Shown here: piece by piece, positions 11,839-64,000 of the stretch
Position numbering within the stretch: position 1 is the first letter of the stretch
Layout of the letters: every line of letters starts with the position of its first letter
Assembly (NCBI RefSeq): GCF_019320115.1
Contig: NC_089598.1
Location: forward strand, 33,501,193 to 33,565,192
Source: Miscanthus floridulus
Taxonomy: Eukaryota > Streptophyta > Magnoliopsida > Poales > Poaceae
Direction: 5' to 3'
Length of the DNA stretch: 64,000 nt
Translations under genes and position numbers: made by a program
Notes under the pieces: model-generated
Database searches by the model: none
Told to the model about the DNA's origin: nothing
The model's input: the letters and a program-made list of their open reading frames with translations, nothing else

Positions 11839-13076
11839 CCACCGAAGTTTCTTTGCTAGTGTTCTCACTGCAAATTTACTCACCACCGAAATTTCCCTAC
11901 TAGTGTTCTCTCTGCAAATTTACTCAACTATACTCCACCGAAGTTTCTTTACTAGTGTTCTCTCTGCAAATTTACTCACCATATATGGGGTATGAACCAG
12001 CTATACTCCACCACCGAAGTTTCTTTGCTAGTGTTGTCTCTGCAAATTTACTCACCATATCTGGGGTATGAACCAACTGTACTCCACCGAAGTTTCTTTG
12101 CTAGTGCTCTCTCTGCAAATTTGCAAATTTACTCACCATATCCAGGGTATGAACCAACTATACTCCACCGAAGTTTCTTTGCTAGTGCTCTCTCTGCAAA
12201 TTTACACACCATATCGGGGGTATGAACCAGCTGTATTCCACAAAACGAAGTTTCTTTGCTAGTGTTCTCTCTGCAAATTTACTCACCATATCCGGGGTAA
12301 GAACCAACTGTACTCCACCGAAGTTTCTTTGCTAATGTTCTCTCTGCAAATTTACTCACCATATCCAGGGTATGAACAAACTTTACTCTGCAAACTTACT
12401 CACCATATCCGGGATATGAACCAACTGTACTCCACCGACGTTTCTTTGCTAGTGTTCTCTCTGCAAATTTACTCACCATATCCGGGGTAAGAACCAATTG
12501 TACTCCACCGAAGTTTCTTTGCTAATGTTCTCTCTGCAAATTTACTCACCATATCCAGGGTATGAACAAACTTTACTCTGCAAACTTACTCACCATATCC
12601 GGGGTATGAACCAACTGTACTCCACCGACGTTTCTTTGCTAGTGTTGTCTCTGCAAATTTACTCACCATATCTGAGGTATGAACCAACGGTACTTTGCAA
12701 ACTTACTCACCATATCCAGGGTATGAACCAACGGTACTATGCAAACTTACTCACCATATCTGGGGTATGAACCAACTGTACTCCACCGACGTTTCTATGT
12801 CAATGTTTTCTCTGCAAATTTACTCACCATATCCGGGGTATGAACCAACTGTACTCCACCAAAGTTTCTTTGCTCCACCTTAGTTTTTTTTGTTAGTGTT
12901 CTCTCTGCAAATTTACTTAATATATCTAGAGTATGAACCAACTGTACTCCCTTAAAATATATGCTTTTTAAAGACACTTCCATTAAAATATATGCTTTTT
13001 AAAGATACTTCCATCGAAATTTCGTTGCTGCTGCAAATTTACTCACCGTACCTGGGAATGAACCAACTCCCAACCG
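11839..13076. repeat. 73-bp minisatellite array with a 190-bp higher-order repeat
   Basis: The basic unit is about 73 bp, with landmarks ccaccgaagtttctttgcta, gttctctctgcaaatttact and caccatatccggggtatgaa. About 18 full or partial units are present. Some are shortened, and one carries an extra tttgcaaa. A 190-bp block starting at 12292 is repeated at 12482. Both flanks carry ccattaaaatatatg...tttaaaga. Open frames through it are repeat artefacts. Confidence 0.9.
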
Positions 13077-27762: not shown

Positions 27763-29343
27763 TGAAAGGATCAAGATGTCCAAGAGGGGGTGAATTGGGC
27801 TAATTCTAAATTCTCTTGCAATAATCAAATCCTACGGATAGCCCAATTAACCCCTTGTGTCTAGAAAAGTGTTTCTATCAAACTAACGTACAAAGGACTT
27901 ACAACCTATGTTCCAAACTTACTCTAGCATGGCAATTCTAAGAATGTAAAGATAAGTAATGAATTGCTCAAAGTAAATACTTCAAAGTAAATGCTCAAAG
28001 TAAAGAGAGAGAGGAACGCGGCAATGTTTTGCCGAGGTATCGGAGAGTCGCTACTCCCCACTAGTCCTCGTTGGAGCACCCGCGCAAGGGTGTAGCTCCT
28101 CCTTGATCCGCGCAAGGATTAAGTGCTCTCTACGGGTTGATTCTTCGACACTCCATCGCGGCGAATCACCCAAAGCCGCTCACAACTTGAGTTGGGTCAC
28201 CCATAAGCTCCATCGGGTGATCACCAAGCTTCCAACCACCACCAAGCCGTCTAGGTGATGGCGATCACCAAGAGTAACAAGCACGAACTCTCACTTGATC
28301 ACGCGAAGCCTAATGAGAAGATGGATGCACACTTTGCTACTCTTGATTCACTAATGAGGCTACTCTCTTGGATTCTCAAATCTCAATCACCTCATTAGGA
28401 CCTTGCTCTTCTTGGCACTCACAAACGTGTTTCTTAGCTGTTGGAATGAGCAAAAGTAACTCCACACACGAGTGGAGCTTCTATTTATAAGGCAGCCTGA
28501 AAAACGAACCGTTATGAGCTTCTGCGGGGTGACCGGATGCTCCGGTCATGTTGACCGGACGCTCCGGTCAGTTCAACCTGCGAACCAGTGAAAATGAGTT
28601 GACCGGACGTTGGCAGGGTCCGGTCAGCACTGACCGGACGCGTCCGGTCGTATGAAACCCTCACTGGATGCTTACTGGACTCGACCGGACGCTGAACCCT
28701 CAGGGTCCAGTCAGTACTGACCGGAAGCGTCCGGTCACAGATTCCCTTCTCTGGAACCTTACTGGAGTCGACCGGACGCTGCCTCTCAGCGTCCGGTCAC
28801 TTAACCGATCCAGCGTCCGGTCACACCGAACGCTGTCTGCTGATCAAATGAACTGACCGGACCCTGCGGCCAGCGTCCGGTCACACCGGAGCCAGCGTCC
28901 GGTCAGCATTTGACCCTCCATTCACTTCCAACTCTCGATCATATGTGAATGAAGTTTGCTCTAAAGGATCTTAGGCATTCATAGGAGCTACCTAGAGCTA
29001 GTTTTAACAAGTGTGCACCACACCTAACTCACTAGACTCAACTAGGTCAAGCTACTCGTTCATACCCCCCTTAATAGTACGATCAAAGGAAAAACAAAGT
29101 CCTAAACTACTCTAAGTGTCACTCCAACTCCAATCTATATTTAGAACTAGTCATCCTTAACCTTATCGTCTATCCTTTGAAAACCGAAACAATTTCCATC
29201 GTAGGGGCATGACCAACTTGATTGCCCAATCGATCTCCATTACCATGTCCTAACTTAATTGCCTCTGCAAAACACACGTTAGTCATAGTAATATTGTATT
29301 GACATTAATCACTGAAATCCAACTAGAGGCCTAGATGCTTTCA
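27763..29343 (-). repeat. 3' LTR of the Sirevirus
   Basis: 1581 bp, TG...CA ends, near-identical to 39387-40996. A TATA-like ttataaata (complement of 28482-28490) precedes a cluster (about 28530-28910) of palindromic gaccggacgc / gcgtccggtc motifs. Confidence 0.95.
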
Positions 29344-39371: not shown

Positions 39372-39384
39372 GGCTCTGATACCA
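39372..39384 (-). promoter_or_regulatory. Sirevirus primer-binding site (initiator Met tRNA)
   Basis: The minus strand reads TGGTATCAGAGCC two bases after the 5' LTR, complementary to the 3' end of initiator tRNA-Met. Confidence 0.92.
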
Positions 39385-39386
39385 AT

Positions 39387-40996
39387 TGAAAGGATCAAGA
39401 TGCCCAAGAGGGGGGGGGTGAATTGGGCTAATTCTAAATTCCCTTGCAATAATCAAATCCTACGGATAGCCCAATTAACCCCTTGTGCCTAGAAAAGTGT
39501 TTCTATCAAACTAACGCACAAAGGACTTGCAACCTATGTTCCAAACTTACTCTAGCATGGCAATTCTAAAAATGTAAAGACAAGTAATGAATTGCTCAAA
39601 GTAAATACTTCAAAGTAAATGTTCAAAGTAAAGAGAGAGAGGAACGCGGTGATGTTTTGCCGAGGTATCGGAGAGTCACCACTTTCCACTAGTCCTCGTT
39701 GGAGCACCCGCGCAAGGGTGTAGCTCTCCCTTGATCCGCGCAAGGATCAAGTGCTCTCTACGGGTTGATTCTTCGACACTCCATCGCGGCGAATCACCCA
39801 AAGCCGCTCACAACTTGAGTTGGGTCACCCACAAGCTCCGCCGGGTGATCACCAAGCTCCCAACCACCACCAAGCCGTCTAGGTGATGACGATAACCAAG
39901 AGTAACAAGCACGAACTCTCACTTGACCACGCGAAGCCTAATGAGAAGATGGATGCACACTTTGCTACTCTTGATTCACTAACACTTTGCTACTCTTGAT
40001 TCACTAATGAGGCTACTCTCTTGGATTCTCAAATCTCAATCACCTCACTAGGACCTTGCTCTTCTTGGCACTCACAAACGTGTTTATCAGCTGTTGGAAT
40101 GAGCAAAAGTAACTCCACACACGAGTGGAGCTTCTATTTATAAGGCAGCCTGAAAAACAAACCGTTATGAGCTTCTGCGGGTTGACCGGACGCTCCGGTC
40201 ATGTTGACCGGACGCTCCGGTCAGTTCAACCTGCGAACCAGTGAAAATGAGTTGACCGAACGCTGGCAGGGTCCGGTCAGCACTGACCGGACGCGTCCGG
40301 TCGCATGAAACCCTCACTGGATGCTTACTGGACTCGACCGGACGCTGAACCCTCAGGGTCCGGTCAGTACTGACCGGATGCGTCCGGTCACAGATTCCCT
40401 TCTCTGGAACCTTACTGGAGTCGACCGGACGCTGCCTCTCAGCGTCCGGTCACTTAACCGATCCAGCGTCCGGTCACACCGAACGCTGTCTGCTGATCAA
40501 ATGAACTGACCGGACCCTGTGGCCAGCGTCCGGTCACACCAGAGCCAGCGTCCGGTCAACATTTGACCCTCCATTCACTTTCAACTCTCGATCATATGTG
40601 AATGAAATTTGCTCCAAAGGATCTTAGGCATTCATAGGAGCTACCTAGAGCTAGTTTTAACAAGTGTGCACCACACCTAACTCACTAGACTCAACTAGGT
40701 CAAGCTACCCGTTCATACCCCCCTTAATAGTACGGCCAAAGGAAAAACAAAGTCCTAAACTACTCTAAGTGTCACTCCAACTCCAATCGACACTTAGAAC
40801 TAGTCATCCTTAACCTTGTCGTCTATCCTTTGAAAACCGAAACGATTTCCATCGTTGGGGCATGACCAACTCGATTGTCCAATCGATCTCCATTACCCTG
40901 ACCTAACTTAATTGCCTCTGCAAAACACACGTTAGTCATAGTAATATTGTATTGACATTAATCACCGAAATCCAACTAGGGGCCTAGATGCTTTCA
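39387..40996 (-). repeat. 5' LTR of the Sirevirus
   Basis: 1610 bp. Differs from the 3' LTR by scattered substitutions, a longer G run near 39412 and a short tandem duplication of cactttgctactcttgattc (39957-40006). The palindromic ccggac/gtccgg cluster is at about 40180-40560. Confidence 0.95.
40135..40143 (-). promoter_or_regulatory. TATA box in the Sirevirus 5' LTR
   Basis: The minus strand reads ttataaata followed by gaagctccactcg. Likely the promoter for the genomic RNA. Confidence 0.6.
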
Positions 40997-44850: not shown

Positions 44851-45715
44851 GTACCGCGCTCTCCTCCGAATAGGAAAGCGTGCTCGTTGACTTCCTCCGC
44901 GATAACAAAGACATCTTTGCGTGGAAACCCTCGGATATGCCAGGCATCCCGAGGGAGGTCGCCGAGCATACCTTAAAAATCCACCCAGGCTCCAAGCCGG
45001 TGAAGCAATGCCTGTGCCGCTTCGACGAGGAGAAACGCAGGGCCATCGGCGAGGAGATAGCAAAACTGTTGGCTACAGGGTTCATTAAGGAAGTATACCA
45101 CCCAGAGTGGTTAGCAAATCCTGTTCTTGTACGAAAAAAGAGCGGGAAATGGAGAATGTGTGTCGATTACACAGGCCTCAACAAGGCGTGTCCAAAGGAT
45201 CCGTTTCCTTTGCCACGAATAGACCAAATAGTTGATTCCACCTTAGGGTGCGAAACCCTCTGCTTCCTTGACGCATACTCTGGCTACCACCAAATCGCGA
45301 TGAAAGAGTCTGATCAGCTCGCGACATCTTTTATCACCCCCTTCGGATCGTTCTGCTACATTTCAATGCCGTTCGGTCTTAAGGACACGGGGGCAACTTA
45401 CCAGCGCTGTATGCTCAATTGCTTTGGAGACCTCATCGGTCAGACCGTAGAGGCCTACGTTGACGACATCGTAGTCAAGTCCAAGCGAGCTGACCACCTT
45501 GTCGCCGATCTTGAACAAACCTTTGCGAAACTTCGGGCAAATGGTGTCAAACTCAATCCCAAAAAATGTGTTTTTGGGGTTCCGAGGGGCATGCTGCTCG
45601 GCTTTATCGTCTCCGAGCGCGGCATCGAAGCCAACCCAGAGAAAATATCAGCCATCACAAAGATGGGCCCAATCCAAAACATAAAGGGGGTTCAGCGGAT
45701 CACAGGGTGCCTTGC
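44851..45715 (+). pseudogene. Tat-type gypsy reverse transcriptase, 5' part, cut by an insertion
   Basis: The frame reads TALSSE, a TAG at 44871-44873 (Gln expected), then VLVDFLRDNKDIFAWKPSDM. RT motifs: LVRKKSGKWRMCVDYTGLNK, FLDAYSGYHQIAM, PFGLKDTGATYQRCM and AYVDDIVVKSK, with Asp residues intact. It ends at RITGCLA, where the minus-strand gypsy element is inserted. The reading resumes at 55189 with TLSRFISRLGERG. Confidence 0.9.
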
Positions 45716-48700
45716 TATGGCAGAACCTCCTAAATTATAGGACCCACATGCACTTGTCACTGTCCAACGACCTTTGACAACTATGCATATGTTCCTGGTA
45801 ACTTAAGAAGTCTATCGGGTGTCCTCAGAGAACCCCGAATCATCCACGATTTCTGAGCAGGATCACATTACAGAGTCATTGCAGTATTACAATATTTATT
45901 CAAATATGTACACCATAGTAAAAATAGCGGAAGTCTTACGATAACATAGTTTACAAACCAGTTGTTTCAAACCATACAAACTAAGTTCGATAATTATTAC
46001 AAACCATAGTAGTAGTGGAGTGGCATTATAACATAATACAAAACACACAATAGAACTGCCCTACCCAAGGGCCACACATTTACTTCTCATCGTCAGATCG
46101 AATAATAGTCATGTAGTACGATCCAAAACAGATCTGCTCATGAGGCTCACCTGCAACAAGGGTCAACGAACACTGAGTACAAAAAGTACTCAACAAGACT
46201 TAACCGAAATAAGAACTGATAAACTCAGGAATGCAGGCTCAGGGATTCAAGGTAGGGCTTTAGCAATAATCAAAGTTATTTTTGCGTAAAAGCTCTTTAA
46301 TAAAAACTCTTTAATTCGACATTTAAAACTTCATAAAATCATATACAAAGCTGACACGATCCGTATGGAGATCATGAAACTTCATATCCAACACTTTCTC
46401 AAACCAGCCTCAAGTTCCAGTTATTAACTACGATGATGAACAGTGAGTTGAGTCTCCATAACCGAGGAGCAACGACGATTCGAACTGATTATAAACCCAG
46501 CAGGGGATTCCAGACCACACGACATATGCAGGTCCCCGACCTACATATACCAACCTACCCTCAGGTCTTCTAAAACAAGAATGGGTCCGTGCCACCCGAG
46601 AATACAGTACTCCACCATTCCAGCCCATGGCCACGTGGGTACACGCTATTCCTGCCATCTCTCCACTCCTAGTGCGCGAGTAGCCATTCTCGTACTAGAA
46701 TCACCAAGTTAAGGCTTACCGGAGTATGTGGTTAGTACTTCAAAGTCTCACCTCATGCAATTCAACAACGGTACGGACCTTAATCGACACAGGCGGAAAG
46801 AAGCCGCTCACAAGACCTCCATGTCTTGTGGCTCTCACACACCGAGTCCGCCCGGTCTAGATTTATTACTTCACATGCTCATATTTCATGATAACATAAG
46901 TAACCAAAGATACATTTAAAACTCACAGGTGATAGGTAATCACCCGACTAAGCATGACTAAGCATAACTAGTCATTTATGAATAAAACAGGTAATCAAGG
47001 TAGATATGGAAAAGCAAGGCTGGTAATGCACCAATTAGGTTTCCACCTGACTTCTAATCACTTAATGCAGTACGGGAAAGCAAAAGCCAAATTAATTTGT
47101 AAAACACAAGGTAGGGTTGTATGCATCCGGGGCTTGCCTTCGTTGACGGAAAAGTCCGGTTTCTGTGATGTTTCACAAGTATTCGATCCGACCTCAACAG
47201 ATGGATTAACCTCCTCCGCAACTTGATTAACTACCATGAGTTCACCTTCGTTCACTACACGTAGTAACAATGCCATGTTTAACATGATGCGGAATACGAA
47301 ACATGATGCTTGATGATGGATGCAAAAGTTAACAACTGGAATACAACTTTCCTTCGCGGTACAGTTACAAGTCAAACTAACTAAACCTTTCCAGAATACT
47401 AACATCAATTGCCAAAGATCATTACCAACTAATGACCCAAGGACATCACTCAAATAAAAAATTCAAACAAAACCTAAATCACTAAAGGTTACTATTTGCT
47501 TTTATGAATTAATTAATTAATTCAGAATTATGAAATAAATCAACTTGTTCCAATTGACCTCAAAATTTTTGTAAATGTTCATCACATGATAACTAAGTGG
47601 CAAAACAATTTTCATAATTTTTGGATAAACAAATAAGCCTAGAAAAATCATGGAAATCCATTTATTAATTAATTGAGCAATTTTCATCACATTCAAACAA
47701 ATAAGCCTAGAAAAATCATGGCAGAGCAAGCAACGGTGATGGTGGCGCTCCGGTGGCTGCGGTGGACAATTTGATCAAGCATCAAGGTACAAAGCACCAC
47801 GGCATCGTGGCGAAACTGAATCATAGCTCGGCAAGGACAGAGACTCACCGCAACGTGGTGGCCACGACGAAACGGGATCGCGGGTGAGGTTGCCGGCCGT
47901 GAGGAAGAAGGGCATGGGCAGCGAGTTCCCGGCGAAGTCAAGCGACAAAAACAGGTTGGTTGGGTGCGCAAGTAGCAGGCGGAGCTGTGACAAGCTTTTC
48001 AGCGGCAGGAGTGCGCTAAAGCGACGGTGAGAGCTCGCCGGAGTTATGGCCGTGGCGTCGGGAAAACAGAGCAAGAGAGCAGGGACAAACAGCGACGGCC
48101 AAGGCTAAATAGCGCGGCTCAGAAGTGCAAGGAAGCTTCGCTGTGGCCTTCACCGCACCTGCGCGACGCCAAAGACGGCCACGACCGCGCCTGAAAGCAA
48201 ACCGAAGGTCGCCGGCGGTGTAGCTTAGGCGGCAAACACTGTTCACAGAATTTATAGAATTGCCCTTCATTTTCAAATTCAAATTACTCCCAAATTTGTG
48301 TAACAACTCAAAAATCTCCAAAAATAAAAGTTGTTCAAAATTCCATGTTCTACAACTTTGCTTTTATAACTACTCCCTAATTCGGTCTACATTTTGAAAT
48401 GAACTTTTGAATTCAAATAGGGAACATTTAACGAATTACGCCTTTTTGAATTACTTCAAATTTTTCATAACAACTTTGAAAACTCCAAAAACAAACTTTG
48501 TATAACTTGTCAAGCTCTACACTTTTGCTTTGTGCTCAACCCCAAAATATGCTTAAATTTTGAAATGAGTTTTCAGGGTAGGATTTAAATGTTGAAAATC
48601 AGGGTTTTCTCGAAAATTCAAAATCCAAACAAACTTTGAACTTGAGTCAAACAATACAATTCAACACATACCACATAAATATAAACTTGTTTTAGTGTAT

Positions 48701-48790
48701 GCATCTCAAAGTTTTCACCAAATGGCAAATGCTTTGCAATGCATATGATGACATGTAAGGTTTTAGTATTTAAACACCCGAGGTGTTACA
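45716..48790 (-). repeat. 3' LTR of the nested gypsy element, with a 538-bp deletion
   Basis: 3075 bp. Begins on the minus strand TGTAACACCTCGGGTG. Relative to the 5' LTR it lacks the segment equivalent to 53578-54115 and has instead 28 bp (47694-47721), of which 27 duplicate 47627-47653. Confidence 0.92.
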
Positions 48791-48803
48791 ATCCTTCTCC
48801 CTA
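48791..48803 (-). promoter_or_regulatory. Polypurine tract of the nested gypsy element
   Basis: The minus strand reads AGGGAGAAGGAT directly before the 3' LTR. Confidence 0.8.
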
Positions 48804-48951
48804 AAAGAAATCTCGCCCCGAGATTCAAAGCCATAGGGTAAGTAATGGAAAAGGAAATGTGTCATGAGAACACATACAAAATCTATCCATAAAATAGTTG
48901 AGGTCCTTTACAAACATGACTGGTAACAACCGAGCTCAAATAATCATTACT

Positions 48952-50490
48952 CTATTCTATATTGACGCTAGAAACTCTGGAAATTTTTCTAATAAGTAAT
49001 CTTCTGATTCCTAAGATTACATCTATATCCCGATCCTTAAGGATAATCATGGTAGTGGGAAAAATATACCCACCCAGGTTTATAGGTACCTGGTATACTA
49101 TTTCCTTAGTACACAGACGTCCCCTGGGTGACTGTATAAAGAGACTTTCCTTTATTGCCCCAATTGAAATTTCATACTTCACAACAAATGTTCTATTGAT
49201 GAATGAATGCGATGCGCCAGAATCAAAAAGTATAACTGCAGGGTGATTGGTAATAGGAAACATACCCATCATCACTGGCTCCCCTTCCAGAATTTCTCCA
49301 GCTTGAATATAGAACACCCGTCCTGTCTTCCTCTCATCTTTGCCCTTCTGAGCATTCTGATTGGAGTTCTTGTTTGGTGCCTGACCCTATTGTTGATTGG
49401 CAGGGGCCTTCTAATAATTTTGATTAGCCTACCTGGGATATGGACATTCCCTGGAGAAATGACCAGTCCTTCCATAATTGTAACACGGATAGTTGTGACC
49501 CTGGGACATTGGAGCATTGCCACCAGGAGCATTGGTCTATTGAGAATTTGGGTAGGTTATAGCAGGACGGACATTTGACTGTTGCCCGGCTTGAGACTGC
49601 GGCGGACAATAAGGAGGACGATTATGATGTACTAGATGATAAATCACCCTCTGCCTCTTCTGATTTCCCCCAAAAGATCCAGACGGCATACTCTTTTTCT
49701 TTTTGAGCTCCTTATGCTGTCGATACTTTGACTCTGAAGCACTTGCAATATTTACTGCCTCATGATAAGTAACATTAGTACAAGTTGTCATCATTGTCTG
49801 CAGCTTGGTATTCAGACCTCTCATAAACCACCTCTTCTTCTTGGCATCAGTATTGACATGTTCAGATGCATATTGTGACAGGTGATTGAATCTTCCCACA
49901 TACTGCATCACTGTTTGATCTCCTTGCTTCAAAGCAAGGAATTCATCCAGCTTCATAGCCATAACTCCTTCAGGGATATAATGGGCTCTGAAAGCAGCAC
50001 GGAACTCAGCCCAAGTTATTGGAATGCCAGCTGGTTGCATAGCCACTAAGTTTGCCCACCAAGCACTTGCTGCTCCTCTAAGTTGCTGGGCGGCAAACGC
50101 AGGTTTCTGATACTCCGTGCATGGAATAAGATCAAATTTCTGCTCCATGGTTTGAAGCCAGTCATCAGCCTCCAATGGTTCATCTGCCTTGGTGAACACC
50201 AGTGGTCTTGTGTCTGTAAAATCAACATATGTAGCCTCCTGTCTGTTATGGTGGTGACCACGGTTTCTGTGCATTTGATTCTGATTACTCTAAGCTATCT
50301 CATGAAGCAAACGAGAATTTTTGGCCGTCACATTGACAAGTGCGGTTATAGCATCAACCAGATTTGTTGGAACTGGTGGCGGATCTAGAATACCGTCCTC
50401 ATCTTGTGAAGTTCCCGGAATATATGAACCCCGCGTACGATGCATCTGCTCATAACAAACCAAACTTTATTCACAAGTCTTTATTGAATT
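48952..50490 (-). pseudogene. Gypsy gag, zinc knuckle and protease, with stops and a truncated end
   Basis: An upstream segment around 50450-50290 reads MHRTRGSYIPGTSQDEDG, then LLHEIA followed by a TAG. The open part 50274-49537 holds the gag core: DEPLEADDWLQTMEQKFDLI, GAASAWWANLVAMQ, FRAAFRAHYIPEG, VMQYVGRFNHLSQYA. After a TAG at about 49536 the same frame shows a CCHC knuckle (CYNYGRTGHFSREC) and more stops. The retropepsin has VILFDSGASHSFINRTF near 49220 and ends abnormally after DIDVILGI. The start of the gag-pol mRNA is unclear. Stops at NSQ*TNAP and IA*SNQ fit Gln codons changed to TAG. Confidence 0.85.
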
Positions 50491-50622
50491 GCACCAAAGC
50501 TTACTCCAGACACATTACATAGAGTTTACTAATATAAACACAAACCTGCAAGTACCAAAACAAGACTACATAACTTAACTAGAACTAACTATTATACAAC
50601 TCTACTGCTTTCCTCAATTACT

Positions 50623-51192
50623 TCAAACTTCAGGCTCGGTATCCATTCCGGAATTATTACCGCCTTCATTATCACTTTCATCGATCATTACTAATTCTTC
50701 AGGATCTTCTTCTTCTTCCTCTTCCGATTCATCATCATCGGCAAGGATGACACTGGGGTCCATTGCATCAGCTTGGGGTTCATGATTTGGATCTAGTAGA
50801 TTGCTAAGCCTATGAACTTCCTCATGCACATAAGTATTATGTTCTTCTAAATCTTCTACATAGAATTCTAGCTCATGAGTTCTAGCTCTAGCTACATTTT
50901 CTCTATGCCAAGCTTCATTCCTTACTTCCACCATACGAACCAACATACGTTCGTAGTTCCTATGCGCGGTGGTGAGACGCCTCAATTGATCCTGTAATTC
51001 TCCTACCTGTATAGCATCCAAAGCCCTATCTCTAGTAGCTTGTGCTAACTCTGCAGAAATCCTCTGTATCTCTACCTGGGGATCAGGCCTAGAGCTGCTA
51101 CTGCTAGCACCATCATTCCTAGGGGCAAGTTGGTGACGAGGAACTCCTTTAGGTCCAGTGGACTTACGGGGCGTCATCTTGGCACGAGCCAT
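50623..51192 (-). CDS. Retrotransposon ORF1: histone H3-tail-like N-terminus, coiled coil, acidic tail
   Basis: 189 residues, open. ATG 51192 is the first ATG in frame and follows an acceptor-like tcctacag by two bases. The N-terminus MARAKMTPRKSTGPK continues as PRHQLA. It aligns with the histone H3 tail (A-R-T-K-Q-T-A-R-K-S-T-G-G-K, then P-R-K-Q-L-A) at about 15 of the first 23 residues after Met, with one inserted residue. Ser-rich linker follows, then a predicted coiled coil (about residues 40-135: ISAELAQATRDRALDAIQVG, LEFYVEDLEEHN), then an acidic tail with DDDESEEEEEEDPEE. A second copy begins at 63920. Function unknown. I infer possible chromatin mimicry, unproven. Confidence 0.7.
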   Translation of the reverse strand: MARAKMTPRKSTGPKGVPRHQLAPRNDGASSSSSRPDPQVEIQRISAELAQATRDRALDAIQVGELQDQLRRLTTAHRNYERMLVRMVEVRNEAWHRENVARARTHELEFYVEDLEEHNTYVHEEVHRLSNLLDPNHEPQADAMDPSVILADDDESEEEEEEDPEELVMIDESDNEGGNNSGMDTEPEV

Positions 51193-51583
51193 ACTGTAGG
51201 AAGCCAATTTAATCCAAGTAAGACCATTTGATCAAAGTCTAAAGAGCAGCTAGGATGAATTACATTACTCAAACCAGACTCACTACTCAACTCCAGACTC
51301 AGAGGTGAAGGAAGTAACAAGTGAATTAATCATGATGCATGAATCGTTCTTACAAACCAAAATCATCAAAGCTTATAATGCACATAAACAACATTTGTTT
51401 TTATATAGGGCATAGTAAGATTACTACTCCACCACACAAAACCTTTTTAATCAAATAAGGAATGGTGAGAAAGAAATAAGATAAGTCAGAAGCAATTTGG
51501 ACCAAATTAACAAGTTAAATTTAGTCATCCCAAATCATTTTGAAGTTTTTGTAAAACAATACAACAAAAACTTTGTAACGATC

Positions 51584-51595
51584 GCTCTGATACCA
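51584..51595 (-). promoter_or_regulatory. Primer-binding site of the nested gypsy element
   Basis: The minus strand reads TGGTATCAGAGC, complementary to initiator tRNA-Met, just after the 5' LTR. Confidence 0.9.
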
Positions 51596-51598
51596 TTC

Positions 51599-54500
51599 TA
51601 TGGCAAAACCTCCTAAATTATAGGACCCACATGCACTTGTCACTGTCCAACGACCTTTGACAACTATGCATATGTTCTTAGTAACTTAAGAAGTCTGTCG
51701 GGTGTCCTCGGGGAACCCCAAATCATCCACGATTTCTGAGCAGGATCACATTACAGAGTCATTGCAGTATTACAACATTTATTCAAATATCTACACCAGA
51801 GTAAAAACAGCGGAAGTCTTACGATAACATAGTTTACAAACCAGTTGTTTCAAACCTTACAAACTAAGTTCGATAATTATTACAAACCATAGTAGCAGTG
51901 GAGTGGCATTATAACATAATACAAAACACACAATAGAACTACCCTGCCCAAGGGCCACACATTTACTTCTCATCGTCAGATCGAATAATAGTCATGCAGC
52001 ACGATCCAAAATAGATCTGGTCATGAGGCTCACCTGCAACAAGGGTCAATGAACCCTGAGTACAAAAAGTACTCAACAAGACTTAACCAAAATATAAACT
52101 AATAAACTCAGGAATGCAGGCTCAGGGATTCAAGGTAGGGCTTTAGCAATAATCAAAGTTATTTTTGCGTAAAAGCTCTTTAATAAAAAACTCTTTAATT
52201 CAACATTTAAAACTTCATAAAATCATATACAAAGCAGACATGATCCGTATGGAGATCATGAAACTTCATATCCAACACTTTCTCAAACCAGCCTCAAGTT
52301 CCAGTTATTAACTATGATGATGAACAGTGAGTTGAGTCTCCATAACCGAGGAGCAACGACGATTAGAACCGATTATAAACCCAGCTGGGGATTCCAGACC
52401 ACACGACATATGCAGGTCCCCGACCTACATATACCAACCTACCCTCAGGTCTTCTAAAACAAGAACGAGTCCACGCCACCCGAGAATACAATACTCCACC
52501 ATTCCAGCCCATGGCCACGTGGGTACACACTATTCCCGCCATCTCTCCACTCCTAGTGCGCGAGTAGCCATTTTCGTACTAGAATCGCTAAGTTAAGGCT
52601 TACCGGAGTATGTGGTTAGTACTACAAAGTCTCACCTCATGCAATTCAACAACGGTACGGACCTTAATCGACACAGGCGGAAAGAAGCCGCTCACAAGAC
52701 CTCCATGTCTTGTGGCTCTCACACATCGAGTCCGCCCGGTCTAGATTTATTACTTCACATGCTCATATTTCATGATAACATAAGTAACCAAAGATCCATT
52801 TAAAACTCACAGGTGATAGGTAATCACCCGACTAAGCATGACTAAGCGTAACTAGTCATTTACGAATAAAACAGGTAATCAAGGTAGATATGGAAAAGCA
52901 AGGCTGGTAATGCACCAATTAGGTTTCCACCTGACTTCTAATCACTTAATGCAGTACGGGAAAGCAAAAGCCAAATTAATTTGTAAAACACAAGGTAGGG
53001 TTGTATGCATCCGGGGCTTGCCTTCGTTGACGGAAAAGTCCGGTTCCTGTGACGTTTCACAAGTATTCGATCCGACCTCAACAAATGGATTAACCTCCTC
53101 CACAACTTGATTAACTACCACGTGTTCACCTTCGTTCACTACACGTAGTAACAATGCCATGTTTAACATGATGCGGAATACGAAACATGATGCTTGATGA
53201 TGGATGCAAAAGTTAACAACTGGAATACAACTTTCCTTCGCGGTACAGTTACAAGTCAAACTAACTAAACCTTTCCAGAATACTAACATCAATTGCCAAA
53301 GATCATTACCAACTAATGACCCAAGGACATCACTCAAATAAAAAATTCAAACAAAACCTAAATCACTAAAGGTTACTATTTGCTTTTATGAATTAATTAA
53401 TTAATTCAGAATTATGAAATAAATCAACTTGTTCCAATTGACCTCAAAATTTTTGTAAATGTTCATCACATGATAACTAAGTGGCAAAACAATTTTCATA
53501 ATTTTTGGATAAACAAATAAGCCTAGAAAAATCATGGAAATCCATTTATTAATTAATTGAGCAATTTTCGTCACATTAAAAAAGTATAGTAAAATAACAT
53601 TTCATATTTTTCTTAAATAATATACATGACAGAGAGGTTACACAAAAAAATTTATAATTTTTGGTGCTCTAAATAAATCTACACAAAAATAAGAAAAACA
53701 AAAACTATTCATTCATTCCAGAAAATAGAAAAATCCATTTTTGAACTACACAGTCACTGACATCCCGACCCTACATGTCATCTTCAACCTCAGGCTTTGA
53801 CTCCGGCGACACGCGCGCTAGCCAGCGATATCTCACCGACGGCGAGACCAACAGTGACGACCAAGGTACCAAAACACTACCCTCGACTAGGCGCATCGAT
53901 TTGGGGCACAAGCTGGACTAGCTACGGACTGGACCGAGCACTACGCCGGCCATGGCGGCCACGACGGCGCGGTTACGCTACGCTAGTGATGTGAGACTTG
54001 TAAAGCTTAAACACATGGCCTAGGAAGCATCAGCAGCTCACCCCAAACGCGACTGAGTAGAGCACAAGGCCGGAGGAGCACTGGAGACGCCGTGCGATGG
54101 TCACAGCGGTCACGACAGAGCAAGCAACGGCGACGGTGGCGCTCCGGTGGCTGTGGTGGACAATTTGATCAAGCATCAAGGTACAAAGCACCACGGCATC
54201 ATGGTGAAACTGAATCACAGCTCGACAAGGACAGAGACTCACCACAATGCGCTGGCCACGACGAAACGGGATTGCGGGTGAGGTTGCCGGCCGCGAGGAA
54301 GAAGGGCGTGGGCAGCGAGTTGCCGGCGAAGTCAAGCGACAAAAATAGGTTGGTTGGGTGCGCAAGTAGCAGGCGGAGCTGTGACAAGCTTTTCAGCAGC
54401 AGGAGTGCGCTAAAGCGACGGTGAGAGCTCACCGGAGTTATGGCCGTGGCGTCTGGAAAACAGAGCAAGAGAGCGGGGACAAACGGCGACGGCCAAGGCT

Positions 54501-55183
54501 AAATAGCGCGGCTCAGAAGCGCAAGGAAGCTGTGTTGTGGCCTTCACCACGCCAGCGTGACGCCAAAGACGGCCACGACCGCGCCTGGAAGCAAATCGAA
54601 GGTCGCCGGCGGTGTAGCTTAGGCGGTGAACACTGTTCACAGAATTTACAGAATTGCCCTTCGTTTTCAAATTCAAATTACTCCCAAATTTGTGTAACAA
54701 CTCAAAAATCTCCAAAAATAAAAGTTGTTCAAAATTCCAAGTTCTACAACTTTTCTTTTATAACTACTCCCTAATTCGGTCTACATTTTGAAATGAACTT
54801 TTGAATTCAAATAGGGAACATTTAACGAATTACGCCTTTTTGAATTACTTCAAATTTTTCATAACAACTTTAAAAACTCCAAAAACAAACTTTGTATAAC
54901 TTGTCAAGCTCTACACTTTTGCTTTTGGGCTCAACCCCAAAATATGCTTAAATTTTGAAATGAGTTTTCAGGGTAGGATTTAAATGCTGAAAATCAGGGT
55001 TTTCTCGAAAATTCAAAATCCAAACAAACTTTGAACTTGAGTCAAACAATACAATTCAACACATACCACATAAATATAAACTTGTTTTAGTGTATGCATC
55101 TCAAAGTTTTCACCAAATGCCAAATGTTTGCAATGCATATGATGACATGTCAGGTTTTAGTATTTAAACACCCGAGGTGTTAA
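51599..55183 (-). repeat. 5' LTR of the nested gypsy element, full length
   Basis: 3585 bp, 510 bp longer than its partner; the difference equals the 538-bp deletion minus 28 bp of filler. The outer end has gtgttaac in place of gtgttaca, so the first bases have mutated. Differences from the 3' LTR in alignable parts are mostly transitions. Confidence 0.92.
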
Positions 55184-55188
55184 CTTGC

Positions 55189-57586
55189 CACCCTCAGCCG
55201 ATTCATTTCACGCCTCGGCGAACGAGGACTCCCCCTTTATCGACTCTTGAAGAAATCTGATCGCTTCGAGTGGACAACCGAGGCTCAGGAAGCACTTGAT
55301 ATGGTAAAGCAATTTCTAACTAAACCCCCGGTCCTGGTCCCTCTAAGCAACAGAGAATCCCTCCTCCTATACATAGCGGCCACCACGCAAGTGGTTAGCG
55401 CCGCCTTAGTGGTAGAGTGGGAAGAAGAGGGGCACACCTTCAAGGTGCAGCACCCTGTATATTTCATCAGCGAGGTGTTATCCTACTCCAAAACCCGCTA
55501 CTCCCAAATCCAAAAACTCCTCTACACCGTCCTCATCACCAAGAGGAAGCTACGCCACTACTTCGAGTCACACCCTATGACAGTCGTGATGTTGTTCCCC
55601 CTCGACGAGGTCATCCATAGCCAGGACGCTACGGGAAGAACCGCAAAGTGGGTGCTCGAGCTGATGGATCAGGGCATTTCTTATGCCCCCCGAACAGCGA
55701 TCAAATCCCAAGTTCTGGCTAACTTCATCGCGGAGTGGACCGAGGTCTAGATGCCACCAGCAGTCGTCGATCAAGAGTACTGGACGATGTACTTCGACAG
55801 ATCGCTGCTGAAGAAGGGCGCTGGAGCAGGACTAGTCTTCGTATCTCCCCTCGGGGTCCGCATGAGGTACATGGTTCAGCTCCATTTCCCCTCATCAATC
55901 AATACTACAGAATACGAAGCGCTCATCAACGGCCTACGAATCGCCATTGAGCTGGGCATCCAACGCCTCGATGTCAGGGTCGACTCCCAGCTAGTCGTCA
56001 ACCAGGTCATGAAGGAGTCAAGCTGCCATGACGCCAAGATGGAGGCATACTGCCAATAAGTCCGACGGCTGGAGGACAAATTTGACGGCCTCGAGCTCAG
56101 TCACATCCCAAGGCGCCTCAACAAAGCAGCCAACACGCTCGTGAAAGCAGCGTCCAGCTGAGAGCCAGTGCCGATGGGTGTTTTCGCCAATGATCAACAC
56201 AAGCCCTCGGTGCACTATGAGGGGTCGGAACGAGCCAACGATGGCCCGCCTGATCCTGTCCCGGGGATCGACCCGCCGACTGCTCCGCCTGACCCTGAGG
56301 TCATGGAGCTCGAAGAGGATCCAGCGGCAGACTCCGACCCTCCCAATGACTGGAGAACGCTTTACCTCGACTACCTCCTCCACGACATACTAAAAGCAGA
56401 CAAGATGGAAGCCCGACGGCTTGCGTGCCGCGCCAAGTCCTTCGTTCTTGTAGAGGGCGAACTCTACAAACGGAGTCACATTGGGATCCTGCAACTCTAT
56501 ATCCCTAGCGAACAGGGAAAACTTCTGCTAAGCGATATCCACGGTGGAGTCTGTGGTCATCATGCTGCACCAAGGACCTTGGTTGGGAATGCATTCCGAC
56601 AAGGCTTCTACTGGCCCACCGTAGTAGCCAATGCTAAGCAAATTGTACGCACCTGCGAAGGGTGTTAGTACTACGCTCGGCAAACTCACCTCCCGGCCCA
56701 AGCACTCCAGATGATCCCCATCACATGGCCCTTCATGGTCTGGGGGCTCGACCTAGTTGGGCCACTCAAAAAGGCACCCGGAGGCTTCACCCACCTTCTT
56801 GTCACCATAGACAAGTTTACAAAATGGATTGAAGCTCGACCAATATCCACGATCAAATCTGAGCAAGCTGTGCTATTCTTCCTTGACATCATCCATCGCT
56901 TTGGAGTACCGAACTCCATCATCATGGACAATGGCACGTAGTTCACCGGCAGAAAATTCATTTGATTCTGCGATGAACAACACATCCAGATCGATTGGGC
57001 AGCCGTCGCGCACCCCTAGACGAACGGGTAGGTTGAGCGCGCAAATGGCATGCTCCTACAATGCCTTAAGCCAAGAATTTTCAACCAATTGAACAAGTTC
57101 GGCGCGCGCTGGCTCGCTGAGCTTCCAGCTGTGCTCTGGAGCCTAAGGACAACTCCTAGCCGAGCCACTGGCTACACACCCTTCTTCATGATCTACGGTT
57201 CTAAGGCCGTTCTCCCAACGGACCTTGACTATGGAGCACCAAGAATCAGAGCATACGACGAACAGGGGGCCAAGGCATCTCACCAAGACACCATGGACCT
57301 ACTAGATGAAGCCTGCGACATTGCCCTTCTCCGTTCGGCTAAGTACCAGTAGGTGTTGCGACGGTACCACAGCCGACGGGTGCGGGGTCGAGCCTTCAAC
57401 ATCGGGGACCTCATCCTCCACCTTGTACAGAGCAACAAGGGCCGCCACAAACTCTCCCTGCCCTGGGAGGGGCCCTACGTCATTGTGAAAGTACTTTGCC
57501 CAGGCGCCTATAGGTTGAAAACCATCAACGGCGAGGTCTTCACCAACACCTGGAACATTGAGCAGCTACGTCGTTTTTACCCTTAA
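55189..57586 (+). pseudogene. Tat-type gypsy RNase H, second RNase H and integrase, with nine in-frame stops
   Basis: One frame throughout. RT-linked RNase H: PLYRLLKKSDRFEWTTEAQE, PVYFISEVLSYSKTRYSQIQ. Second RNase H: WTMYFDRSLLKKGAGAGLV (usual Gly after Asp is Arg), NTTEYEALINGL, VDSQLVVNQV. Integrase: zinc-binding HHAAPRTL...RTCEGC, core VWGLDLVGPLKKAPGGFTHL, IIMDNGT, VERANGM (catalytic D, D, E present), and C-terminal WEGPYVIVKV to WNIEQLRRFYP. Stops: TAG at 55748, 56666, 56939, 57017, 57029 and 57350, TGA at 56159 and 56963, TAA at 56057. The TAG codons fall where Gln is expected (CEGC*YYARQ, AHP*TNG*VERAN). Confidence 0.9.
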
Positions 57587-58154: not shown

Positions 58155-58610
58155 GTACTACTGCGGCCACCGCGCCGAGCTCTCCATCGGCGACGTCCGG
58201 GCATGTACACGGGCCAGTTTGTCTACTATGGTCGCCGCACCACGCTCTCCATCGGCAACGTCTGGGCATGTACACGGGCCAGTTCGTCTACTATGGCCGC
58301 CGCACCACGCTCTCCATTGGCAACGTCTAGGCATGTACATGGGCCAGTTCGTCTACTGTGGCCGCCGCACCACGCTCTCCATCGGCGACGTCCTACCATT
58401 TCACGGGGTCCTCGAAGGCACCATCACTTGCAATGTCGAGCTCCACGCCGGCAACTGTAGCGCCTCCGCCGGGGCGTCTAGGGACTATGCCATCGTCGTC
58501 AGCCGCAACCCCGACAGCGACGCCTCCACCAGGGCGTCCAGGGACTACGCCATCATCATTAGCCACAACCCTAACAACGGCGTCAGGGCAAGAAATGCCT
58601 CCCGCCAAAG
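58155..58610 (+). pseudogene. Captured ribosomal protein L8 (uL2) fragment, internally amplified
   Basis: From ATG 58333 the frame reads MYMGQFVYCGRR, LSIGDVLP, GVLEGTITCNVE and RDYAIIISHNPNNG, matching the central part of plant cytosolic ribosomal protein L8. Upstream, 65-bp units starting atgtacacgggccagtt at 58203, 58268 and 58333, plus an earlier partial unit from about 58155, repeat the GQFVYxGRR...LSIG segment. Because 65 is not a multiple of three, the copies are in different frames. Downstream, a 60-bp (20-codon) segment encoding the RDYAI...NP part is duplicated in frame (58462-58521 and 58522-58581). Only an internal slice of the host gene is present, with no introns in it, so it cannot make a ribosomal protein. 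It lies in the 3' region of the Tat-type element. Confidence 0.8.
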
Positions 58611-63536: not shown

Positions 63537-63547
63537 TGGTATCAGAG
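63537..63547 (+). promoter_or_regulatory. Primer-binding site of the right-hand gypsy element
   Basis: tggtatcagag, complementary to initiator tRNA-Met, two bases after the LTR end. Confidence 0.9.
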
Positions 63548-63919
63548 TAGGTCCTATCTAAGATCATTGTAGGTTACTTTGGAAAACCTTCAAATTGATT
63601 TGGATCAAAGGAAGTAAACTTGATATTTTAAAGTTCAAATTTCTTTCTTCTTACCTTTGATCTAGCCTCAATCCTATCTTATTTGAAAGTTCATAGCGGA
63701 TAATATGATTAGGTTTGTCCTATGTATTAAAAATCTAGTACTTATGATTATATAAATCTTTTGTACCTAGATTCGTAAGATCGATTCATGCATCATGCTT
63801 GAACACCTTGCATAATAATTCCCCTTAAAAGTGGTTGGGTAAGTAATGTCGATCCCATTCTTGCTAACCTCCATTATCCTCTAGTTATTCTTATAGTCCT
63901 ACCCTAACTTCTACAGGCT

Positions 63920-64000
63920 ATGGCAAAGACCAAGATAACCGCATGCAAGTCCACTGGACCTCATGGAGTCCCTCGTCACCAGTTGGCACCACAAAACCAC
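63920..64000 (+). CDS. ORF1 with histone H3-tail-like N-terminus, partial (second copy)
   Basis: ATG 63920 follows the acceptor-like ttctacag by three bases, just as in the nested copy. It reads MAKTKITACKSTGP and then PRHQLA, aligning with the H3 tail at about 14 of the first 23 residues after Met. It keeps T3 and A7 of H3, which the nested copy lacks, while the nested copy keeps R2, R8 and K14, so the ancestral sequence was probably even closer to H3. The ORF runs off the window. Confidence 0.7.
   Translation, partial: MAKTKITACKSTGPHGVPRHQLAPQNH

Follow-up and report, generated by a model that had tools for sequence, protein, structure and literature searches.

ORF1 and the element that carries it

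The window analyzed here (the whole stretch of 64,000 nucleotides of Miscanthus floridulus DNA) contains an LTR element of 9,468 bases at 45716-55183, in which an additional open reading frame, ORF1, precedes gag. Its parts follow one another on the minus strand in the order 5' LTR, primer binding site (PBS), ORF1, gag, retropepsin and 3' LTR. The 5' LTR (51599..55183, minus strand) has 3,585 bases and the 3' LTR (45716..48789, minus strand) 3,074 bases, with 98 mismatches over 3,061 columns aligned in two blocks; about 510 bases of the 5' LTR (53584-54109) are absent from the 3' LTR. The element is flanked by a five-base target-site duplication, CTTGC (45711..45715, with its partner at 55184-55188), and the first base of the PBS (TGGTATCAGAGC; 51584..51595, minus strand) lies 403 nt before the ATG of ORF1. 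Gag (capsid; 49537..50289, minus strand; PF03732, 1.3e-22) and retropepsin (48952..49386, minus strand; PF08284, 1.8e-27) occupy separate open stretches. The section from RT to integrase is missing from this copy, since the roughly 160 bases between the retropepsin stretch and the 3' LTR leave no room for it. The element is nested in another retrotransposon on the plus strand, whose RT (44874-45740, PF00078) ends at the left border; on the right side lie RNase H (55184-55750) and, just under the cut-off, a zinc-binding piece of an integrase (56162-56668).

A second, diverged element begins near the end of the window, with a PBS at 63537 and an ORF1 start (MAKTKITACKSTGPHGVPRHQLAPQN; 63920..64000, plus strand) that is cut by the window end. 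Another LTR-like repeat pair, about 1.6 kb long and 95% identical (27763-29343 and 39387-40996, with a minus-strand PBS match at 39384), has no ORF1-like match among the matches listed. The window also holds a tandem-like array of dense direct repeats that are about 78-94% alike (11925-12950) and three direct copies with a spacing of 65 bases (58158-58392). Scans for tRNAs and Rfam families gave no matches in the window.

ORF1 runs from 51192 to 50623 on the minus strand (189 codons without an internal stop), and its ATG is the first in frame after a stop. The translated protein of 189 aa opens with MARAKMTPRKSTGPKGVPRHQLAPRNDGASSSSSRP. According to structure prediction, residues 1-37 are disordered, including a Ser-rich linker (51082..51111, minus strand), residues 38-133 form a single long helix, taken as a coiled coil (50794..51081, minus strand; pLDDT about 97), and the acidic end is again disordered. 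This acidic tail (residues 134-189 plus the stop; 50623..50793, minus strand) has 24 D/E and no K/R. The coiled coil and acidic tail that the earlier note had read after the H3-like start are both recovered, the former by prediction. The coiled coil probably displays the tail, in two or more copies, if the predicted model is right. A Pfam scan of ORF1 found no domain above the cut-offs, and none of its six weak rows is a histone family. We also considered whether ORF1 could be a histone H3 or H2A proper and rejected this, as the part after the tail is a long predicted helix with an acidic tail and not a histone fold.

An acceptor-like site (TTCCTACAGT; 51193..51202, minus strand; read TTCCTACAG|T ATG) lies directly before the ATG of ORF1. 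Its placement, already pointed out in the earlier note, is repeated in the genome: AG|T stands immediately 5' of the ATG in 41 of 42 same-genome loci, and AG|GCT ATG is found in 12/12 loci of the second family. Between the PBS and the ORF1 start there are 10 ATGs in the leader of the window element (51193-51595) and 6 in that of the second element (63537-63919), so initiation at the ORF1 ATG of the window element would depend on splicing or leaky scanning. By eye, a candidate splice donor, GTAAGA, is seen at a similar place in both of these leaders (TTTGTAAGA and TTCGTAAGA). Small second residues are an established signal for removal of the initiator Met; residue 2 is Ala in 63 of 75 starts of ORF1 and its relatives and small in most others, so Met removal is to be expected.

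Similarity of the ORF1 start to histone H3

Aligned with H3 residues 1-23, the start of the window ORF1 (MARAKMTPRKSTGPKGVPRHQLAPRND) is identical at 15 of the 23 positions when a single insertion is allowed, and none of 20,000 residue shuffles reaches its H3 score (z 9.2). Control stretches (the tails of H4, H2A, H2B and CENP-A, and H3 27-52) give z values of at most 2.7 for the window start and at most 3.5, the highest being H4, over 13 strings; the H3 score is reached by 0/20,000 shuffles in 13/13 strings. Two families match H3 at 17 of 23 positions (MARTKQTARKxTG).

We searched 177,635 distinct PDB sequences blindly. Single sequences find H3 at modest E-values: the window ORF1 has an H3 peptide second (E 0.27), the first place being taken by a coiled-coil chimera (0.11), P0164 matches an H3-tailed Cse4 at 0.0097 and H3 at 0.3, P0150 has an unrelated chain (0.077) ahead of H3 (0.28), and P0230 has lamins and other coiled-coil proteins ahead of H3 at E 1.3. 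A profile of four ORFs reaches H3 at 3e-4, with the best 60 of its 136 matches all H3 or H3-tailed constructs, and a profile of residues 1-28 from 13 relatives reaches H3 at 1.3e-7, with the best 60 of 140 again all H3 or H3-tailed constructs. The profile matches to H3 align N-terminus to N-terminus. Residues 1-13 (MARAKMTPRKSTG; 51154..51192, minus strand), whose K10 corresponds to K9 of H3, match only H3 (0/3000 shuffles), and when such residues are compared with full-length core histones, only H3 is matched in 11/11 families (z 6.3-10.7; 0 or 1 of 3,000 shuffles). That ORF1 begins with an H3-tail look-alike, as claimed earlier from the letters, is thus confirmed at the sequence level: the resemblance exceeds chance by the shuffles and by the profile E-value.

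Similarity of the second half to histone H2A

The earlier note had also continued the H3 tail into the P-R-x-Q-L-A that follows. The H3-like start holds; the equivalents of P16-R17-Q19-L20-A21 do not, being closer to H2A VPRHIQLAVRND. A control profile of residues 13-46 finds H2A, not H3, in 7 of 8 PDB matches (best E 0.048), and a tighter profile of residues 11-30 has 25 matches, 24 of them H2A (best E 0.059) and the 25th a 28-residue peptide; one by one, these H2A matches are weak. The aligned pair is VPRH-QLAxRND of ORF1 with VPRHIQLAVRND of H2A, and in the window ORF1 the look-alike covers residues 14-27 (PKGVPRHQLAPRND; 51112..51153, minus strand), as seen in the profile and shuffle comparisons. 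Compared with full-length core histones, residues 14-30 fit H2A (z 2.9-8.1) better than H3 (z 0.7-2.7) in all 11 families, which share descent and are therefore not 11 independent observations. The H2A match of these residues is reached by 0 to 6 of 3,000 shuffles in ten families and by 48 of 3,000 in one. The single-sequence search with P0230 has no H2A among the PDB matches listed. The downstream half of the block thus appears H2A-like rather than H3-like, at lower strength than the H3 match, and an H2A-like half would account for the kept V17 and H20, neither of which is H3-like. This half is newly recognized in the present analysis.

Conservation of the start across families and within the genome

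Three protein searches (E 1e-3) gave 489, 440 and 112 relatives, with 120, 120 and 112 of these listed, and 253 proteins were compared, the window ORF1 included. The block pattern is matched by 82 of them; 75 have a Met 12 or 13 residues before the first Gly of the block, and 7 begin inside the block. The other 171 of the 253 are not matched, most because they begin further downstream, and at least nine proteins (P0145 among the nine) have the start but escaped the pattern, position 13 being R or E or position 20 being R. Clustered at 60% identity over the part beyond residue 28, the proteins with these 75 starts form 11 families (with 34, 18, 10, 5 and 2 members and six singletons); examples of the starts are MARTKQTARKMTG, MARTKQTARKKTG, MARTKQAARKSSG, MARTKQTPRKKTG, MAKTKITARKSTG and MPPRTRKTARKSTG. 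Mean identity between families is 0.77 in the first 25 residues vs. 0.27 in the remainder, and the start is the higher in 55/55 pairs. No relative of ORF1 was found in viral and prokaryote contig collections or in a plasmid collection.

The only invariant columns in 30 chosen aligned rows are K10 (K9 of H3), G16, V17, P18 and L22. Among the 75 starts, the equivalent of H3 K9 is retained in 74 (M replaces it in P0023), T6 in 71, K4 in 65 (the other 10 have R), T3 in 62, R8 in 60 (12 have H or C), S10 in 55, T11 in 54, A7 in 27 (42 have P) and Q5 in 12. When each subfamily is counted once, giving 19 clusters, the most frequent residue is that of H3 at 11 of the 12 tail positions; only at position 7 does another residue, P (9 clusters), outnumber that of H3, A (7 clusters). 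By cluster, K9 is kept in 19, G12 in 19 (partly imposed, as the pattern required G at 13), R8 in 18, T11 in 16, T3, K4 and T6 in 15 each (K4 otherwise R), A1 in 14, R2 in 11, Q5 in 9, A7 in 7 and S10 in 6. Further downstream, K14 is found in 13 clusters, the K18 position is H in all 19, and K23 is found in 2. Some residues that are not those of H3 are as strict as the H3-like ones, i.e. P14 (71 of 75 starts), G16 (73), V17 (75, with V at 17 required by the pattern) and H20 (73), which suggests that the block is also constrained independently of H3. In one family the start is MPPRTRK, shifted by one residue from the H3 register.

We searched the assembled genome (G000; 2.68 Gb, 2,420 contigs) for further copies and scored at least 150 matches of ORF1 (10,116 candidates) and at least 150 of the second family (7,461 candidates). 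Comparison of 42 loci (30 from the window ORF1 query and 12 from the P0224 query) found an H3-like start, as accepted by the search pattern, in 42/42; 28 of these loci are open for at least 180 codons and 14 have an early stop. The P0224 family itself was not found in this genome, and the P0224 matches listed resemble copies of the window's own family. The earlier note had proposed looking for the H3-like start in other family members and for selection on the first codons. The start recurs in the 42 loci, as well as in 11 diverged families, and the codons point to purifying selection on it: in the 26 rows that have exactly 189 codons, pN/pS comes to 0.19 for codons 2-25, 0.06 for the linker, 0.12 for the helix and 0.19 for the acid tail, where pN is biased low by the choice of rows by protein similarity and ratios over short regions are unstable. 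Between the two families, pN/pS over codons 2-25 is 0.31 (pS 0.66); within the second family (6 rows), it is 0.38 for codons 2-25 and 0.88 for codons 2-13 alone. The K10 codon, AAG, is fixed in 26/26 rows. R9 is lost in 3 rows and R19 in 4, through changes of CGT to CAT, as would be expected from the decay of methylated CpG. The second element of the window also opens its ORF1 with the H3-like start; at H3 position 7 it retains A, against P in the first copy.

Relationship to Tekay-type chromoviruses

ORF1 lies between the 5' LTR/PBS and gag (PBS at 51595, ORF1 at 51192-50623, gag from 50289, all on the minus strand), and by element order and domains it fits the 5' extra ORF of a Tekay-type (Del) chromovirus. 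A full-length relative from this genome, L055, has in turn a PBS, ORF1, gag, CCHC-protease-RT, RT-RNase H and an integrase with an SH3-like domain and a chromodomain (pieces searched apart). The chromodomain is at the integrase C-terminus (PF00385, 6.8e-6), which bears out the expectation that relatives of this element carry chromodomain integrases; no chromodomain was found in the five pieces of L056 that were scanned.

An ORF0 upstream of gag-pol is described in the group of Retrosat2, RIRE3, RIRE8 and FRetro3, with LTRs over 3 kb (PMC3485330), and Retrosat-2 is placed under Tekay/Del (PMC6317226). The window element resembles this group in its LTRs over 3 kb (here 3,074 and 3,585), its extra ORF before gag and its chromovirus lineage. 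However, the ORF0 proteins were modelled as hydrolase-, acyltransferase- or transporter-like, and the word 'histone' is absent from the main text of that paper (PMC3485330); the Retrosat2 LTR or ORF0 as query is described there as giving no matches in eight non-Oryza genomes. Kinship of the window ORF1 with these ORF0s is suggested by position. The 5' aORF protein of sunflower Tekay group 2 shares position and lineage with ORF1 and is likewise disordered with helices, and it is predicted to be nuclear; it is reported to have no amino-acid similarity to grass 5' aORFs, and 'histone' does not occur in the main text of the report (PMC11728184).

A putative histone mimic and its alternatives

We consider it somewhat probable that ORF1 encodes a histone mimic that engages readers or writers of the H3 tail around K9, either those of the host or the chromodomain of the element itself. 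The proposal builds on the H3 match, the weaker H2A match, the conservation across families and the purifying selection, all read from the sequences themselves, and on a predicted architecture. The free, disordered N-terminus would imitate residues 1-12 of H3, followed by the VPRHIQLAVRND segment of H2A; a long coiled coil would carry it, ahead of the acidic C-terminal tail. Once Met is removed, Ala1 would be exposed, and the tail might be taken for that of H3 at R8-K9-x-T11-G12 by H3K9 writers or readers. As an outcome, silencing machinery may be drawn off, or the particle or integration complex may be anchored to chromatin; the chromodomain of the element's own integrase, for which type II is expected from the lineage, could mediate the anchoring. 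As a more tentative possibility, the protein would be a chimeric mimic of the H3 tail (residues 1-12) and of the VPRHIQLAVRND stretch that borders the acidic patch in H2A, and would supply the ligand that plant type II chromodomains are missing, divert H3K9 silencing as a decoy, or do both.

The resemblance could instead be a coincidence, a short motif that serves another function. The stretch is indeed short and basic, and the non-histone residues P14 and G16 are as strict as the histone-like positions. Yet the profile matches (the best 60 of 136 and the best 60 of 140) are H3 or H3-tailed throughout and align N-terminus to N-terminus, the shuffles fail to reach the H3 score in any string, and two different histones account for two adjacent halves, so we regard coincidence as very improbable. 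The N-terminus might also be a basic tag for nuclear import or for binding of nucleic acid or gag, H3-like by chance or by histone inheritance, with no readers or writers of marks involved. In favor of such a tag, the net charge is +4 to +8 over the first 30 residues in 11/11 representatives (P0164 with an upstream extension). The H3 tail itself acts as an import signal. In addition, nuclear localization is reported as predicted for the 5' extra-ORF proteins of a set of grass Tekay elements (PMC11728184). However, tags of this kind tolerate change, and here K9, V, P, H and L are each retained in between 73 and 75 of the 75 starts across families that are 27% identical elsewhere; nor does the tail preserve the lysines that H3 has at 14, 18 and 23. 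We rate the tag as rather unlikely.

It is improbable that the tail serves solely as a ligand of the element's own integrase chromodomain, the ORF1 protein and the integration complex recognizing each other with no host protein being mimicked for. A chromodomain is present in the same type of element (L055), and the partner of plant type II chromodomains was stated as unidentified in 2012 and in 2019 (PMC3350952, PMC6317226). However, sunflower Tekay group 2 has a type II chromodomain, yet its 5' extra ORF is described as unlike the grass ones (PMC11728184), and a plant type II chromodomain is reported to colocalize with an HP1-like host protein (PMC3350952), which points to a chromatin ligand.

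Retention of R8, K9, T11 and G12 alongside looser A7 and S10 is reminiscent of the way in which SUV39-type H3K9 methyltransferases select their substrates. The substrate motif of mammalian EHMT2 is given as [GCSAKLN]RK[TGQSVMALNKER] (PMC10611923); RK followed by a residue that EHMT2 accepts after K9 is found in 17/19 clusters, and the full mammalian motif in 7/19. The window family does not fit this mammalian motif, having PRKS with P at A7. Like the H3K9 mimics reported so far (automethylation sites of G9a/GLP and EHMT2 substrates; PMC9768651, PMC10611923), ORF1 has an RK core and predicted exposure; it differs from them in that its match is at a true N-terminus, extends over 12 residues in H3 register and is followed by an H2A-like piece, and the window family has P7. 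We found no description of an H3-like start of a retrotransposon ORF, nor of the H2A-like half, in the open-access literature searched; in the accessible text of the wheat paper PMC12418699, ARTK is present only as a CENH3 peptide.

Other parasites have stretches of protein that resemble the H3 tail. Viral mimics of the H3 tail (influenza NS1 and similar) are short and C-terminal or internal, whereas the longer one of ORF1 sits at the N-terminus and is shared by many families of retrotransposons. The H3-mimic interpretation put forward from the letters is, on the sequence evidence, partly supported.

Extra ORFs are common in plant LTR retrotransposons and mostly have no known function. A copy of the H3 tail in one of them would give a single short, synthesizable peptide that bears both on the function of extra ORFs and on the partner of type II chromodomains. 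If the proposal is true, one element encodes both a copy of the H3 tail and a chromodomain, and a transposon would be using an imitation of the histone tail itself to attack or exploit the chromatin code.
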